Translations under genes and position numbers: made by a program
Source: Sporopachydermia quercuum
Taxonomy: Eukaryota; Ascomycota; Sporopachydermiomycetes; Sporopachydermiales; Sporopachydermiaceae
Reading direction: 5' to 3'
Assembly: GCA_001599295.1 (NCBI GenBank)
Contig: BCGN01000003.1
Location: forward strand, 1,775,148-1,839,147
DNA: 64,000 bases
Notes under the pieces: model-generated
Databases searched by the model: none
The model's input: the letters and a program-made list of their open reading frames with translations, nothing else
Told to the model about the DNA's origin: nothing
In this document: positions 17,160-63,326 of the stretch, in pieces
Layout of the letters: each line of letters starts with the position of its first letter
How positions within the stretch are numbered: the first letter of the stretch is position 1

Positions 17160-17872
17160 TCATTCTGGTGAGTTAAGAAGGTTAGTGCCATACCGTATAT
17201 ACCAGACATCTTCGCCTCGAAAGTATCTTAATGCATCCTGAGCCACACCACTAAAAAAACCAAACACCAGTCCTTTCTTACTCATGTTCATAACCTGCGA
17301 TCGACTCAGACCCTCTATAGCAGAATAATGTTAGTAACCACTAAAAAACCCATATAACTGAACATTCCAGCGTTTGACTACAGTAACGATACCTCCTCTT
17401 ACCACAACTTACTTGATAAACTGTAAAGACATCCTGCTGTTGCTGTAGCTAACATTGTCGACAGAAAATCAATCTGTCCTCGTACATAATCGATTGAGGC
17501 TTCAAGTCCAAAATATGCTGTACAGAATCCAACTACCCTGGTCGAGTACTTCACACTATTTACCATTCCTTTCTGAATCATTACATAGTTTTTCCTCTTA
17601 TGATAGAAATACCATCCAGACATCGTTTTCGGCAGCCGATGAGCATTTTCTGCCAAATACTGTAAGGATGCTGCTTTATATCCATTATAGAACCCTGCGC
17701 CTAAGCCGAACATACCACCAGCTACTGCTATAGCGGGTAGCCTATATTTGGGATGCAGATGAAACCTTTGACCAACGTTATCATCTTCAAATTCACTCCA
17801 AAGTTTGGCNCTTAGTTTTTCGTGTTCTGGATCTACTGTATCCACTTCAATAACTTTTTGCTGNTGTTCCAT
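17160..17872 (-). CDS. Tim17-like fungal membrane protein, probably mitochondrial (spliced)
   Basis: Exon 1 is 17413-17872 and exon 2 is 17160-17314. The 98-nt intron has donor GTAAGT, branch TTACTAAC (about 17330-17338) and acceptor CTATAG; the phase-1 join gives 204 residues. Without splicing the frame stops soon after the third membrane segment. Glycine-rich segments (AGGMFGLGAGFYNGYKAA, STMLATATAGCLYSL, SKKGLVFGFFSGVAQDALRY) resemble the Tim17/Tim22/Tim23 fold, with the family-like signature AENAHRLPKTMSGWYFYHK. I recall conserved fungal proteins of this pattern but no experimentally settled name. Ns at 17810 and 17864 are in the coding sequence. Confidence 0.85.
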
Positions 17873-22654: not shown

Positions 22655-23627
22655 ACTCACTCCCTTTTTATGATTGTATTATTGAAGAGCCAAACAAAAT
22701 GAGACAGGGAAAGCAGGTAAAGATTATTGGTTGGGGAAATGAGAAACTGAAAATCAAATATATGTGTGGAATAGCATGATACTTACCATCAACAACACTG
22801 AACTCTTTATTTCATCAATCAGAACTTCAACTTAGGAACTATCTAATCATCACAGTTGCTATTTGGTCAAACTAAATTCATCGCCTCATTTGGTGTTTGT
22901 GTCAATTTTTCTTGTTTTTCTTTCAGATTGTTCTAAATCAGTGTTGTGTATAGGATTCAATATCAACCTATTAGTTGATTCCTTCATAATGTTTGATTTG
23001 AATTAGATTATCGTCTCTCTCATTTTAAAACCTTTTGTGTACATTATTTTGTGTTCCGATTTATCGGTCATCAGTTTGTTTAATCATCATCATTGTTTAT
23101 TATTGATTTATTTCATCAATTAGTTTCCAAACATGTTGAAGCACCCTGTAAGTAATCACAGAACTAGTAGCAGTGCAGTTTCTAACTGGTACTACTAACA
23201 ACCTATGTCATCAATCAATAGTTACCACGTTAATTCGACACAGTCTATCATAGTTATTACCACTGATCCTATTCTATTGCTTGTATTAATCAAATCCAGG
23301 ATATGTGTATTTTAACAACCATTTGGAAGGCACTTTTTTTTATGAATATGCTTTCTACACAGAAAGGCTAATGATGATGGGACCCTTGTCTTGAGACAGC
23401 TTAAGCAAGAAAAAGACATTATGTAAAGTTTCGTTTGTATGGATAGTCTTCCTAATCAAGGAAATATTACTATCATATTTAATAGATTTATTAATGTTGA
23501 TGTTTTGATACTATTACTGGGATTGTTCTGAATCGAGAAAGACGAAGCTATTGAGCCCATTAACTGTGCATTTCTATATCTCTTTTCTGATATTCTCTAT
23601 AGCTACCTCTATAGCTAAAAAAAAACA
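22655..23627. other. HTZ1-DPH7 spacer with a candidate intron
   Basis: This 970-bp spacer contains a partial reverse copy of the recurring motif directly after HTZ1 (22667-22682, two mismatches) and a well-formed intron signature at 23148-23221. No long reading frame is present. Confidence 0.6.
23148..23221 (+). other. Candidate intron in the DPH7 leader or a short spliced transcript
   Basis: Donor GTAAGT (23148), exact branch TACTAAC (23193-23199) and acceptor CAATAG (ending 23221) define a 74-nt intron of typical local size. It is preceded by ATG TTG AAG CAC CCT at 23133. Joining to the first acceptor gives only MLKHPLPR and a stop. A 5'-leader intron with a uORF is therefore more likely than a protein gene. 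Confidence 0.45.
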
Positions 23628-24767
23628 ATGGCATCTACTGCTATCATCAGTCATAACATAAAAACCAAGTATCCACCTTGCGCCTTACAGTTTCATCCTG
23701 ATGTAACTGATTTACTAGTAGTAGGAACATACCAATTAAATAAAGAGAAAGCCGTCGGTGAACCAGAGTATAGAACTGGATCAATAGACTCTTTTAGGAT
23801 ACATGAAAATAGCAATGAGTTACAGCTAATACAGCAGGTAGAGATACCCATGGCAATACTCGATGTTAAGGTGAATCCTCTGGATCACAACCATTATGTA
23901 ATAGCTACATCTGTTGGTAAACTATTATCATGTACAGTAACGACAGATGGTAAGATAAGTCTTGATTTTGAAACCTCAGTTACTAGTTCTGATACATTGA
24001 TCACCTGTGTTAATTTTTTTGGAACATCTAAAGGTGAAACAGATCAAACAAGAGTACTTTTCACAGCAGTGGATGGATCTATTGGAATAGCGTTACTGGA
24101 GAAAGAGAAATTTACAGTATTGAAAACATTTCACAGACATGACCTGGAAGCTTGGACAGGAATTGCTGTAAGGTTTGATGAAAGCGAGGATCAGTTGATT
24201 ATCACTGGAGGTGATGATGCAAGATTAGCAATTACCAAGTTTGATTCACATTCACTGGAAAATAACAGAGAAAGTGAAGAAGACAGAGAAGAAGATGATG
24301 ATGCCGAGTCTAATGCACAGAAAATCAATCTTGAAAGATTACACGACGGGGGCATAGTATCAATACTGCCGGGGTGTGAGGTATCAAATAAAGGATCAAA
24401 GTATGAATTATGGACAGGTGCATATGACGATCAACTGAAAGTACTAGATGTTGAAAAGGTTGTAAAATACGGAATTACGAGACCAATTGTTAAACAGAGA
24501 TTGAATCTTGGTGGTGGGGTATGGAGGTTGATTCCTTGTCCCAAGAATAAAACTAATGAGAGTGACCACGACTATGTACTAGTTTGTTGTATGTATAATG
24601 GTGCTGCTGTTGTCAGTAGAGATAGGAATTCTGGTGAAGTAGATATTGTCAGTCAATTACATGAAGGCCACGAAAGTATGGTCTATGGGGGAGATTGGGA
24701 TAAAGAAGGTGAGAAACTAGCAACCTGCAGTTTTTATGATAACTCATTACAGGTTTGGACAATATAG
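23628..24767 (+). CDS. DPH7: Dph7/Rrt2 diphthine methyl ester hydrolase (WD repeats)
   Basis: The 379-residue WD-repeat protein has Dph7 landmarks: PPCALQFHPDVTDLLVVGTY near the N-terminus, DDARLAITKFD, LWTGAYDDQLKVLDV, LGGGVWRLIPCP and a closing GHESMVYGGDWD repeat with CSFYDNSLQVWTI. Dph7 removes the methyl ester from the diphthine intermediate on eEF2 so that Dph6 can amidate it. S. cerevisiae RRT2 is similar in length (387). An acidic insertion (ESEEDREEDDDAE, about residue 215) lies between blades. The gene converges on the thioredoxin-like gene with only 55 bp between stops. Confidence 0.93.
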   Translation: MASTAIISHNIKTKYPPCALQFHPDVTDLLVVGTYQLNKEKAVGEPEYRTGSIDSFRIHENSNELQLIQQVEIPMAILDVKVNPLDHNHYVIATSVGKLLSCTVTTDGKISLDFETSVTSSDTLITCVNFFGTSKGETDQTRVLFTAVDGSIGIALLEKEKFTVLKTFHRHDLEAWTGIAVRFDESEDQLIITGGDDARLAITKFDSHSLENNRESEEDREEDDDAESNAQKINLERLHDGGIVSILPGCEVSNKGSKYELWTGAYDDQLKVLDVEKVVKYGITRPIVKQRLNLGGGVWRLIPCPKNKTNESDHDYVLVCCMYNGAAVVSRDRNSGEVDIVSQLHEGHESMVYGGDWDKEGEKLATCSFYDNSLQVWTI

Positions 24768-27846: not shown

Positions 27847-28589
27847 ATATAGCCTAAGTGATGTTGAATAGCTCATAAAGTAGAATAAAGGAGGTAATGA
27901 TTAGTGATAATTCATACATAAGAAGAGGAAACAACTAGAAGTTTGTAGAAAATAAGAACACGATGATGTTGTGACCATGTTGTGTGTTTTAGAAGAATAT
28001 TCTAATGGTATATAATGATGTTTTAATGAACTTTTTATTTTGGATTCTTTCAAAGCGCTGATGAGTAATTTTATCTTACATCGCAGTTTGACCTCGTTTT
28101 GTCTGGACGCCAACTGCTTATGAGCTTCCATAAGCAGTTCACATCAAACACTCTCAATTGCTTAGTAACCTAACCTCCTAACAACATCGAACCTACATCT
28201 AGTGCATCCCTTTTCTCATAAACTATAAATATAATTATAATCACATATGCCATCTTGTTTTTCACATATATAATAAACCATTTCCTTCCTCGGTAACTTT
28301 CCGATTTCTTCTTATCACTTCTTTTTTTCCATTCCCTTTAATAGCCTTTCAAGTGCCAATGACAAGTCTAGACTTTCTGATTACATAATTAATATTTATG
28401 CCATTGCCTCCATTATCATCACATGTTAGTTCAAGTTCTCAATTACAGAGGCACATATAAAATAGCACAAACAATTATGCAAAAGATGTGTCAAATTAAC
28501 AAATGAGCTGTTGAAGTATTAATAATACATACACTTTGTTTATCATATTTATCAGTCTACTAATAAAAGGAATACCGATATAATCACAG

Positions 28590-28597
28590 TATAAAAG
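28590..28597 (+). promoter_or_regulatory. TATA box upstream of the glutathione peroxidase
   Basis: TATAAAAG, followed by a TATATATATAC tract, about 180 bp before the ATG. This is a normal yeast TATA distance. It would place initiation near or inside the candidate leader intron, so upstream TATA-like sites may also be used. Confidence 0.5.
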
Positions 28598-28622
28598 TAT
28601 ATATATACTAGGGAAACATCCA

Positions 28623-28705
28623 GTAAGTTGATGAGTCAATTGAACACTTATTATACAGCCTTACAGATGATGTTTTTGCCTTGCAATACTAACAATTAAC
28701 TATAG
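28623..28705 (+). other. Candidate 5'-leader intron of the glutathione peroxidase gene
   Basis: Donor GTAAGT (28623), exact branch TACTAAC (28687-28693) and acceptor CTATAG ending at 28705 give 83 nt, matching local intron sizes. A 22-codon uORF (28631-28699) and a TGAGTCA element lie entirely inside it, so splicing would remove the uORF from the leader. Confidence 0.55.
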
Positions 28706-28771
28706 AAGAACAAGTAATTCATCGTGGCTACCACTTTAAAGCATCTAAGAAAATTAAGTACTATAAGAACA

Positions 28772-29550: not shown

Positions 29551-32500
29551 CTACCGAGTCCTCTTTCTCTTCTCTTCTGGTACTACGGAGGATGCCTTAC
29601 TACTAGTAGTGCTTCCTGGTTTACTTCTCTTCTTCGAATTACCACCATCAACCTTTTTTGTCAGTAGCGTTAAAAGCGTGGCCGCTCTTCGGCTCAGCTC
29701 TCCTGGTGTTCTCGAGAGGAAAAACCAATCAAATCTGAACAATGGTGATCTTCGAATAGCATTTTTGATTAGATCATACACATTCTCAGTGTTCATTCCC
29801 AATTTGTTCAATTGAACCAGTAGGAATCTGTCTTCCTCTTCTGAAAACACTCTACGTTGCGATGATGATGATACATTGTAGGGAATCTCCATCTCCTGTA
29901 AAGGAAACTCATAAGACTCAACTTTCTTCCTTAGAGCATCACGTTGGACCATAAGTTTTTTGCTCTTTTCTTCACCTGCCTCAATCTGTTGTAAGTATCT
30001 ATCATATCCATCGATTTCACTATATCTTGACCAAAACACTTTGCTGTATGTTTTAACGTCTTGCAAGGACTTATCATCCAATTCATTAGCAATGGCTTCA
30101 TAGTTTCTACGTCCATGTTTGGCACTTAGTTGGATGAAATGTGTAAAGTCTCTACGATTCCAATTGCTGAAACCCTGCATTGCTAACTCAACTTTTAGTT
30201 TTTCCTCCTTTTCGGTTAACGGTTCAGCATTCTCGATTTCTTGCTGTTCAAGCTCTTGTTCAGCTTTTCGATCCTCTAATGTTTCTTCAGGACCATCAGC
30301 TAAGGGCACTTTATAACCTGTTTGCTTTCTAAAGTAGCTTTTTTCTTTCTCATAGATCTCCACTAACTGAGGAGAATAGAACTGGTGATCTTGAATATGA
30401 AGTTGCTTAGGAGGTCTAGGTCCTTTTGGAGTAGAATTTGCAGGTCTGCTTCCAGAACTTAGCATATCTTTATAATAACCATCAATATTGTAGTTTTCTT
30501 TTCTTTCACGTTTAGCAGGATTGATCCAGGTGAAAGCAGGAACATTTGTAGCTGTTTTCTTTTTGAAGTCTTCTCCATTCCATTCATAGGCCGAGTCTGA
30601 TGTGAATTTTTGTAGATCGTCTAAACCAAGCTTTTCGTACCGTTCATTGAGAGCTTTTGTTCGTTGTTCACCTTGTAACAGGATAGAATCAATATCAAAA
30701 TCATCATCTGACTCATTGCCATTGCTTCCTTCTTCAGTCTTCGTATCTCTATTACGATCACGTTTTCCTGCTTTCTTCTCGTTTACTTTTTCAAAAACAT
30801 CAGCAGCACCGTGCTGAATCATTGATAAGAGATCATCCTTTGTTGCTGCTTTTCCAGACTGCTGAGCAGCTCCCCGACGGCCTTGCTGAATAACCAGTTG
30901 ATCCAGTCTGAGTTTCTGAGCTGCTCTCTCAAGAATCTTTTCTTCAATTGCATTATCAGTAATGAATCTATAAACAAACACTTGCTTTTTTTGCCCAATT
31001 CTATGGGCACGATCCATTGCTTGTAAATCAGCCTGGGGGTTCCAATCCGAGTCATAGAGAATAACTTGATCAGCTGTAGTAAGATTGATACCTAATCCAC
31101 CAGCTCTCGTTGTTAATAGAAATACGAACTTTTCGCTTCCAGGCTTATTATAAGTATCTATAGCAGCAATTCTATCTTCATGAGCAGTTTGACCATCAAT
31201 ACGGCAATACTGATAGCCCCGGAAAATACAGTAATCTTCTAAAATGTCAAGCATTCTACTCATCTGAGAAAAGATCAAGGCTCTTGATCCTTGAGCTTGG
31301 AATTTCTTTAATAATCTATCAAGAACCTTCATTTTACCTGCATTGAATACCAAATGTTCATCCGTTGTATAAGGAGGTCCTGGCTCAGCTCCTTCAAACA
31401 AGTAAGGATGGTTACAGCATTTTCTCAACTGCATAACAATATTAAGAAGCCGTGTCTTCGACTCCTTTTTACCAGTTGCACCATTCACAGCATCTATGTC
31501 TTTTTCCAACAGCTTCTGGTACCAGTTTAGTTGCATATCACTCATTTTTATATACACGTTTACTTCTTTCTTCGGTAGTAAAGATTTCTCCACATCTGAC
31601 TTCAATCTTCTTAATAAGAAAGGATTTAGTACAGCATGAAGCTGATGAATGACGTTTTCTTCTTTCTCTTCTTTAGAAGCAGATTCTTTATCCTCTGATA
31701 ACTCTTCGCTATCACTGTTTTTGGTGAACCATAAATCAAAGTTATCAGAATCAGAAAATATATCAGGAAGAATGAAATTAAGTAAAGCCCATAATTCATG
31801 TAAATTATTCTGTAATGGTGTACCAGTGATTAATAGTCTGTTTCTTGAATGGAACATTCTGATGATCTGTGATAATAAAGATTCTTCATTTTTGATTCTA
31901 TGAGCTTCATCAATGATTATGTATTCCCAAGCAAATTTCTTCAGAGTGGCTTTTTCTTTAATGACCATTTCATAAGAAGTAACAATAACGTCAAAATCAC
32001 AAGACAAAATCCTGTCAGCAATCAATTTAGGTCTAGATTCTTTATTACCTTGCAAAACAACGACATTTACTTCTGGTGTCCATTTGTTGAACTCTCTTTG
32101 CCAGTTGTCTAATGTGGATTTGGGCACTACGACTAAATGAGGACCACCAATATTCTCAATGTATCGTAAATATCCAAGAAAAGCGATTGTTTGCAGAGTT
32201 TTCCCTAGACCCATTTCGTCTGCTAAAATACCCGAAATATTGTTCTTGTAAAGATTGATAAGCCAATTCAACCCTTGGATTTGGTAATCACGCATAGTTC
32301 CATTAACAAACCCTGGCGATTGTTCGAATACTGATGCATCATAGTTGGACTGTTCAGCTTGCAATAATTCAGCATCTTCCTCCTTTTCGGTTTTTCTTCT
32401 CCTATGCTCAGTCGATGTCGCAGTATCACCTGGTTTTGGTAAACCTTTCTTCTCTATGATTTTGACTGCCTCTGCGAAATTTGGATCTTTGCTTGCTTTA

Positions 32501-33106
32501 GCCTCAATGAAATGATGGAAAAGGGTTGTAAGACCCAAGAGATAAGTCAAGCGCGTGACTGTTTCATCAACCTTGAAAATTGTTAATAAAAATGATTATT
32601 TTTGACAATTAGAAAGAGTTATAGATTAAAAAATAGGAAAAGAGCATACTTACATCAAATGATTTCTTAGCGTCTGCAAAGTATATTCGCTTTTTAGCGT
32701 CATTGCTCAAAGGTGTAAATGCTCTGAACGGAGTTACATCCTATGAAGGAATTCTAGTTAATATGACGATGTTCTGATTAATCAAATGGGTCAAATGTTA
32801 CTGCGTGAAACTTCTCTCTTATTTTGTTCCGATTCTATTGTGGTTACAGCAGAGGGATCAAGATCTCGGTACGTACATAAGATGTTGGCACTGATGGCTA
32901 TATGGATGAAAAAAGTAATCTGTTAGTTGAGAGTTCTTCCAATATCAAAAGGATATAAGATCCTATTAAATGGACTTCCAAAGAAAGACCAAAAAATAAT
33001 TATCTAGTAGTGTACATGACTATGGAAGTAAGTGATGCAGTCCAGACTGTCGTATTATTGTACATACCATGTCAGGTTCCGGAGTAGGAGTTGGATCAGA
33101 AGACAT
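29551..33106 (-). CDS. ISW1: ISWI-family chromatin remodelling ATPase (four exons)
   Basis: Exons are 33068-33106, 32877-32897, 32654-32740 and 29551-32571; all joins are phase 0 and give 1055 residues (yeast Isw1 1129). Introns of 170, 136 and 82 nt have donors GTATGT, GTACGT and GTAAGT. The SNF2 ATPase has ADEMGLGKT (about 168-174), IIIDEAHRI (DEAH about 270) and helicase motif [21 protein letters not shown] ([20 protein letters not shown]) and SLIDE domains follow, then a basic tail. The short exons encode the N-terminal [16 protein letters not shown] region that precedes [12 protein letters not shown] in this family. Isw1 slides and spaces nucleosomes. The acceptor of intron 2 is the least certain junction. 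Convergence with GPX supports ISW1 over ISW2. Confidence 0.92.
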
Positions 33107-34030: not shown

Positions 34031-34621
34031 TTAAGCGTTAGCCTTATTGAAGTACTCCTTGGATTCCTTGACATCAGGTTTGATTGTCAAGGAACCTTCT
34101 TGCCAGTTAGCAGGGCAGACTTCACCGTANTTGTCAGTGAATTGGAAGGCTTCCAAAAGACGGAGGGATTCATCAACAGATCTTCCGACAGGTAAGTCGT
34201 TGATGGTGATTTGTCTAAGAGTACCCTTAGGATCAATGAGGAAAATACCTCTAAGGGCAACACCTTCTTCTTCAATCAAAACACCGTAGTCCTTAGACAA
34301 AGTGTGGTTGGTGTCAGCAAGTAAAGGAATGTTTACAGGTCCGAGACCACCATCCTTTCTGGCGACGTTAGTCCAGGCCAATAAGGAGTATTCAGAGTCA
34401 GTAGAGGCGAACAACACTTCGGCACCCTTAGACTTGAACTTTTCGATGGCTTCAGAGTAAGCAATGATTTCAGTAGGGCAAACAAAAGTGAAAGCCAAAG
34501 GAATGAAAGCCAATAAAACCCACTTTCCTTTGAATTGCTCTAATGAAACTTCTTCGAAAACGCCATCAATGACGGCAGTCTTCTTGAAGGTAGGAGCTGG
34601 CTTTTGAATAATAGCGACCAT
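34031..34621 (-). CDS. TSA1: Typical 2-Cys peroxiredoxin
   Basis: The 196-residue product is the exact length of Tsa1. The peroxidatic cysteine is in [14 protein letters not shown] (about Cys48) and the resolving cysteine in GEVCPANW (about Cys169). The GGLG and YF motifs ([26 protein letters not shown]) linked to hyperoxidation sensitivity and chaperone switching are present. It reduces hydrogen peroxide using thioredoxin in the cytosol. The N at 34130 leaves one residue as Asn or Lys. A TATA element lies 170 bp upstream. Confidence 0.97.
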
Positions 34622-62303: not shown

Positions 62304-63326
62304 ATGTTCGAGGAAGGAGGTTTAACTAAGCAGGAGTATGTATCATTGAAATAATACTACTATACAATCTATTTATCATTTTCTTGATCTATCTTTCATT
62401 GGAATCCTATATAAGTACTAACATTTTACTAGAAAGCAAATGCAGAAAGGACTGCAAGCCTTGGCAGAAGTCGAACGGAAAATGATCAAAGCTGAAAACG
62501 CTGTGAGTATGTAAGAGTACCTTTTTCCAACAGTATAAAATTTATACAATGCATCCAAATACGGAGACTCTAACGGAGTATAGCCGCTTTTCATATAAGT
62601 CGAATGCAACCTATTTTTGAAGAGAGAAGAGAATCATTGAAGAATATTCCTGGTTTTTGGTCGACTGTTTTAGCCCAATCTGAAGACTTCCAAGAATTCC
62701 AGTTAGGTATCGATGATAATGATATATTTGACGTTATTACTGAAATATATGTAGTTAAAGGCATCGATGAAAAAGAAGAGTCAAACAATGGTATAAATTC
62801 AATAGAATTTACTTTTGAGTTCAAAGATTCTGATGTTTTGCAAGATCAAACTGTAGTTAAGAAGTTCTGGACAGAAAGTGTCAATGTTGAAAACGACGAT
62901 AGAGAGAATGAAGCCACGAGTAAGAAATCAGTCTGGGTCTCGGAACCTGTTGAAGTGAAATTCAAGTCTGAAGCTTTAAGGGATAAAAAGAAAGTGAGAT
63001 CTTATAAAAAGGGTTTTTTGAAATGGTTTGAGTATTCAGGGAAATCTCATGGCGAATTCAAAGGTGGTGACGATTTGGCTGTGCTTATAGCGGAGGATAT
63101 ATTCCCAGGAGCTGCTACTTATTTCACTGAGTCACTAGCTGATTTAGAGGATGATGAAGATGAGGAGCTTGATTTGAGTGAAGAAGATGATGAGGATAAT
63201 GAAGATGAGAAAGATAATGGCAATGGCAATGGCAATGGTGAGAATGATAGTGATCGTACTTCTGGTAAGAGAAAAGCAGATGAAGAGAATGATGATGATG
63301 AATCAAATAAGAAAGTGAGAAATTAA
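62304..63326 (+). CDS. VPS75: NAP-family histone chaperone, Vps75/SET type (three exons)
   Basis: Exons are 62304-62335, 62433-62506 and 62584-63326, giving 282 residues (yeast Vps75 264). Introns are 97 nt (donor GTATGT, branch TACTAAC, acceptor CTAG) and 77 nt (donor GTATGT, branch CTCTAAC, acceptor TATAG). The spliced N-terminus forms the dimerisation helix (QGLQ-ALAEVERKMIKAENAV) leading to RMQPIFEERRESLKNIPGFW. The earmuff domain follows (INSIEFTFEFKDSD, KKGFLKWFEYSG, IAEDIFPGAATYFTESLADL). An acidic tail, a Gly-Asn repeat and a basic end (GKRKADEE, NKKVRN) close the protein. Vps75 works with Rtt109 in H3 acetylation. The first ATG of the long frame (62604) would delete the helix. Confidence 0.88.

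Follow-up and report, generated by a model that had tools for sequence, protein, structure and literature searches.

An ATG-less, presequence-like extension upstream of a Gpx3-type glutathione peroxidase gene in Sporopachydermia quercuum: a candidate case of dual targeting by near-cognate initiation

Immediately upstream of the first ATG of a glutathione peroxidase gene (GPX) in Sporopachydermia quercuum, the reading frame stays open over a short stretch, which raises the question of whether this stretch is translated from a near-cognate start codon and serves as a mitochondrial presequence. The gene is located in a 64,000-nucleotide stretch of genomic DNA (the window), which contains 20 isolated N bases, some of them in ORFs (e.g., position 34130 in ORF 34031–34621). 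The first-pass annotation had described the frame as open and ATG-less from a TAA to the GPX ATG, the encoded peptide as basic and acid-free, and a GTG within it as having an A at −3 and a G at +4; these three statements were confirmed from the sequence, and the GTG is located at −48 (Table 1). Other in-frame near-cognate codons include ATC (28721) and AAG (28739), both with a T at −3, and ATA (28763), which has an A at −3 yet lies just three codons ahead of the ATG. No ATG was found in any frame between 28706 and 28771, and, because the extension contains no CTG, reassignment of CUG would leave it unchanged. The R-K-L-S sequence in the extension, which we take to be an R-3 (MPP/Icp55) cleavage motif, could represent a predicted cleavage site; of 2518 open windows upstream of other genes, 89 contained the pattern R-x-[LFYI]-[SA].

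Table 1. Features of the GPX locus (positions in the window).
Feature	Position	Strand	Basis
TATA-like elements, 15–33 nt 5′ of the donor	28590..28607	+	consensus match only
Probable 5′ UTR intron, 83 nt: GTAAGT 28623–28628, TACTAAC 28687–28693, TATAG ending 28705	28623..28705	+	consensus signals
uORF in the probable intron: ATGs 28631, 28667, 28670, all in the GPX frame; stop TAA 28697–28699	28631..28699	+	sequence
In-frame TAA bounding the extension	28715..28717	+	sequence
ATG-less in-frame extension, 18 codons, presequence-like, FIVATTLKHLRKLSTIRT	28718..28771	+	sequence, composition
GTG, candidate start, at −48; A at −3, G at +4	28724..28726	+	start use inferred
R-K-L-S, fits R-3 motif	28748..28759	+	motif match
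Glutathione peroxidase, Gpx3/HYR1-like, 160 aa	28772..29254	+	ORF, profile match, PDB alignment

The GPX product matched PF00255 (GSHPx domain) with an E value of 5.3e-48, and its best PDB chain was 3cmi (S. cerevisiae HYR1/Gpx3; E = 1.2e-83), to which it aligned without gaps over its full length (residues 1–160). C36 and C82, presumably the peroxidatic and resolving cysteines, as in S. cerevisiae Gpx3, are present in both proteins. The main ATG has an A at −3. A profile search of the genome (16.39 Mb assembly, 12 contigs), which by its genes resembles that of a budding yeast, scored two candidates and yielded a single PF00255 match, suggesting that the one GPX gene may serve more than one compartment. 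Relatives of the gene in the genome_contigs collection were all bacterial by title among the best 80 of at least 588 loci (52–68% identity), and the 29 loci found in viral_contigs (31–55% identity) included no yeast relative.

In S. cerevisiae, Gpx3 is reported to carry a non-AUG-initiated extension of 18 aa from CTT at −54 or 16 aa from ACG at −48, and with this extension it reaches the mitochondrial intermembrane space (PMC5368413); the precedent that the first-pass annotation had cited is real, with a closely matching position. The S. quercuum gene is alike in encoding a closely related enzyme and in having an ATG-less, presequence-like, in-frame extension of 16 to 18 codons with a near-cognate codon at −48; this likeness concerns layout and position. 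It differs in presenting GTG at −48, where S. cerevisiae uses ACG (or CTT at −54), and in having a probable 5′ UTR intron just upstream.

The shared layout, with a near-cognate codon at −48 in both yeasts, supports Gpx3-type dual targeting by near-cognate initiation, a reading that we consider somewhat probable and that combines the observed sequence features, the relationship to Gpx3, and the intron signals with presumed splicing, GTG initiation, and import. The first-pass annotation had called such dual targeting plausible; the Gpx3 precedent, the extensions of ACC1 and GRS1, and a likeness to the GRS1 extension (see below) strengthen this proposal, while a codon usage resembling that of non-coding DNA counts against it. 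A Gpx3-type thiol peroxidase would be made from one gene in two forms. The majority of ribosomes would bypass the weak GTG and start at the ATG, producing a cytosolic enzyme, while the few that start at the GTG would extend it by 16 residues, a basic amphipathic presequence that would direct the enzyme to the mitochondria (in S. cerevisiae, to the intermembrane space). Splicing of the leader intron would remove the three upstream ATGs and leave a leader that shows scanning ribosomes the GTG and then the ATG. If this is correct, near-cognate dual targeting of Gpx3 would not be peculiar to baker's yeast; the same −48 layout would occur in the genome of another yeast, albeit with a different codon there, alongside ACC1 and GRS1, and annotation from the first ATG would miss mitochondrial forms.

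The principle that a near-cognate start can bring about dual targeting is already known. S. cerevisiae HFA1 is described as starting at AUU, non-AUG starts are reported for S. cerevisiae ALA1 and GRS1, and the upstream ACC signal of K. lactis was tested by rescue, those of other yeasts being predicted (PMC4263661). In all these cases, a mitochondrial form arises from a near-cognate start that lies 5′ of the AUG of the other form, and the S. quercuum ACC1 and GRS1 genes share the ATG-less layout with the yeast HFA1/ACC and GRS1 cases. However, all of these are enzymes other than GPX, the S. quercuum ACC1 and GRS1 extensions (129 and 103 codons, respectively) are far longer than that of GPX, and the long form of ALA1 in S. 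quercuum, unlike that in S. cerevisiae, begins with an ATG. The Ustilago maydis pgd1 gene, in which a cryptic PTS2 is read from AGG AUU (PMC7214817), is similar in having a cryptic targeting signal in the 5′ UTR accessed via non-AUG codons, but this signal is peroxisomal and the enzyme is a different one. Among titles and abstract beginnings in the open-licence literature, no yeast GPX extension of this kind was found outside S. cerevisiae, and no paper on Pichia pastoris and Candida GPX was found in the open-licence literature.

Whether S. quercuum uses non-AUG starts at other genes bears on the GPX question. The genes that we take to be ACC1, GRS1, and ALA1 were named by orthology to the yeast genes. 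ACC1 (PF08326, one match in the genome; locus G000:C1:89001-92500) presented an ATG-less open stretch before its first ATG that is rich in Ser, Lys, and Arg and lies in a frame open from C1:90691; GRS1 (TIGR00389, also one match; G000:C8:1099850-1101718, minus strand) likewise presented open codons without ATG before its first ATG. From measured non-coding frequencies, the chance of stop-free and ATG-free runs of these lengths is approximately 9e-6 (ACC1) and 1e-4 (GRS1). At least 100 ATG-less open codons were also found in 5 of 70 control genes, the long extensions of these five genes probably being in part second exons. A search for paired donor and branch sites that might turn the ACC1 or GRS1 extension into a second exon found none; such a search can miss introns and appears insensitive, because the same kind of search found no TACTAAC 5′ of an ISW1-like gene that looks spliced. 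It is possible that ACC1 has a non-AUG mitochondrial form; a spliced second exon is the alternative. These caveats, i.e., the control genes and the introns that may have been missed, lowered our confidence in dual targeting of GPX, which is further weakened by the ATG of ALA1. The gene that we take to be ISW1-like (ORF 29551–32295, minus strand) is preceded by 100 open ATG-less codons (32296–32595) that are coding in appearance, and its start seems to be located further upstream than the first ATG.

The 16 residues encoded from the GTG to the codon before the GPX ATG align without gaps to part of the GRS1 extension, starting there at an ATT codon, with eight identical residues and a BLOSUM62 score of 42. 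This likeness was spotted by eye before testing, in a comparison that covered three genes (GRS1, ACC1, and ALA1); none of 2000 shuffles and none of 4914 six-frame chunks of 103 aa from the DNA examined (best score, 33) scored as high. The GPX extension scored at most 28 against 353 protein chunks, and the GRS1 extension scored at most 32 against 69 other 18-mers from upstream regions. No likeness was found at the DNA level (local score of 19 versus a shuffle mean of 19.7), with 25 of 48 bases agreeing and seven of the eight shared residues specified, by eye, by different codons. The likeness fits two translated presequences, related by convergence or an old common origin, with coincidence as the alternative. 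A likeness of the ACC1 or ALA1 extension to that of GPX was rejected (score reached by 1621 and 1105 of 2000 shuffles, respectively). A search of the whole genome with a 22-residue peptide returned only the peptide itself, although this search is weak, as GRS1 likewise went unreported at the first pass. The ATG-less extensions of ACC1 and GRS1, together with the peptide likeness to the GRS1 extension, favor translation of the GPX extension; the detection of that likeness by eye, and the absence of a similar likeness for ACC1 and ALA1, weaken the case.

The extension may instead belong to an ordinary 5′ leader, with 18 codons open by chance and a basic, acid-free make-up that derives from an A-rich leader, an explanation that is a real possibility although on balance we doubt it. 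Controls were drawn from the window and a 190 kb block of the same genome, with 70 ORFs of at least 150 aa (74 before removal of overlaps). Extensions of at least 18 open codons were found in 30 of the 70 genes, GPX included, although some of the longer extensions resemble exons of spliced genes; 18 codons without stop or ATG have a chance of approximately 0.20 in non-coding DNA, and length was therefore rejected as evidence for the GPX extension. Also consistent with an ordinary leader, 0.9–1.7% of control windows were open, ATG-less, and acid-free with at least four K/R residues, and the codon usage of the extension resembled that of non-coding DNA, with a log-likelihood ratio (−0.26) equaled or exceeded in 41% of the 2367 open windows from non-coding DNA; among 2127 windows from coding DNA, only 8% had a value this low. 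Coding-type codon usage in the extension was thus rejected, which weakens dual targeting as well. On the other hand, 48-mers that were open, ATG-less, and acid-free, with at least four K/R residues and a hydrophobic moment at least equal to that of the GPX extension, were rare. They made up 23 of the 7107 windows upstream of the remaining 69 genes, 579 of the 249,310 overlapping windows taken from both strands of intergenic DNA (123/52,624 plus 456/196,686), and 0.43% of the stretches in a simulated set of 200,000, which amounts to 0.2–0.4% of non-coding controls. These simple criteria for presequence-likeness were devised for this analysis and chosen post hoc, once the peptide was known, for a gene that the first-pass annotation had singled out among the 28 ORFs of at least 120 aa listed for the window, which reduces the weight of the figures for dual targeting. 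Among the 32 genes with at least 16 codons, two (GPX and one other) were acid-free with a charge of at least +4 in the last 16, and the hydrophobic moment of GPX was reached by GPX alone; a near-cognate codon with a purine at −3 combined with the presequence criteria was found in 2 of 48 genes tested (of the 70), GPX and 42466. Overall, the composition of the extension moderately exceeds chance, and this make-up, the near-cognate scan, and the R-3-type motif support Gpx3-type dual targeting. An ordinary leader is also at odds with the experimentally tested precedent for GPX in S. cerevisiae and with the GRS1 likeness.

The leader intron is an addition to the first-pass annotation, which had omitted it. 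Genome control ratios indicate that it is quite probably real: GTAAGT-TACTAAC-YAG with intron-like spacing was found 193 times genome-wide versus 54 for the reversed pattern (120 versus 22 in a tighter form), and GTATGT-TACTAAC-YAG 176 times versus 19, all counts including alternative acceptors of one site. Five donor types pooled gave 13 versus 2 for a control branch site in the subset of the genome examined. TACTAAC alone was enriched in the window (14 versus 7.12 expected); TACTAAC followed by YAG was not enriched in the window alone (4 found, 3.83 expected). The signals typical of this genome (GTAAGT or GTATGT, TACTAAC, and a near YAG) are all present at the GPX leader.

With such an intron, an AUG-initiated long form could be produced through alternative splicing of the leader, as the genome-typical intron signals would allow; this is nevertheless very improbable, because 28706–28771 contains neither an ATG nor a YAG acceptor (six AAG only) and the last ATG before the donor is located at 28503. 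In addition, TAA 28715 comes after the acceptor, and the two spliced frames examined contained no ATG before the junction; this candidate was rejected, and the lack of ATG and YAG supports initiation at a near-cognate codon. It is also improbable, though less so, that the extension matters as promoter or leader rather than as peptide, with GPX using its ATG alone. The TATA-like boxes and a TGAGTCA (28632) lie close upstream, and, because the former are only 15–33 nt from the donor, transcription may sometimes begin close to the supposed intron or within it. However, a promoter or leader role would leave unexplained a GRS1 likeness that exists in the peptide and not in the DNA, and no local RNA structure aiding the GTG was found above shuffles (z = −0.28; 74 of 200 shuffles fold equally well). 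Dual targeting is itself weakened by this lack of structure and by the location of the GTG within a predicted 4-bp hairpin. A version of dual targeting gated by splicing, with the GPX extension as one of several similar presequences, that of GRS1 among them, seems unlikely to us. On unspliced transcripts, scanning ribosomes would be caught by the uORF, which ends upstream of the GTG; spliced transcripts would expose the GTG and the ATG, and splicing efficiency (e.g., under oxidative stress) would determine how much of the peroxidase is mitochondrial.

Further consensus matches 5′ of GPX include TTAGTAA at 28162 and TTACATAA at 28381, which we take to be Yap1-like sites, while the TGAGTCA inside the probable intron is presumably an AP-1/Gcn4-like site; all three are consensus matches only. 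Intron-like signals were also observed elsewhere in the window. A Tim17-family gene (17399–17872, minus strand; PF02466, E = 4.7e-06, below the profile cut-off) presented the same signals at 17315–17412 (minus strand), where splicing turns a soon-stopping frame into one that continues for approximately 50 more residues; the ATG-to-stop ORF ends the protein approximately 50 residues early. GTAAGT-TACTAAC-YAG at 23148–23221, approximately 400 nt 5′ of ORF 23628–24767, represents at most a 5′ UTR intron, because the joined frames are short. Finally, GTATGT-TACTAAC-TAG at 62336–62432 is located 5′ of ORF 62604–63326; the joined frame contains an ATG (MFEEGG...), yet reaches a stop before this ORF.
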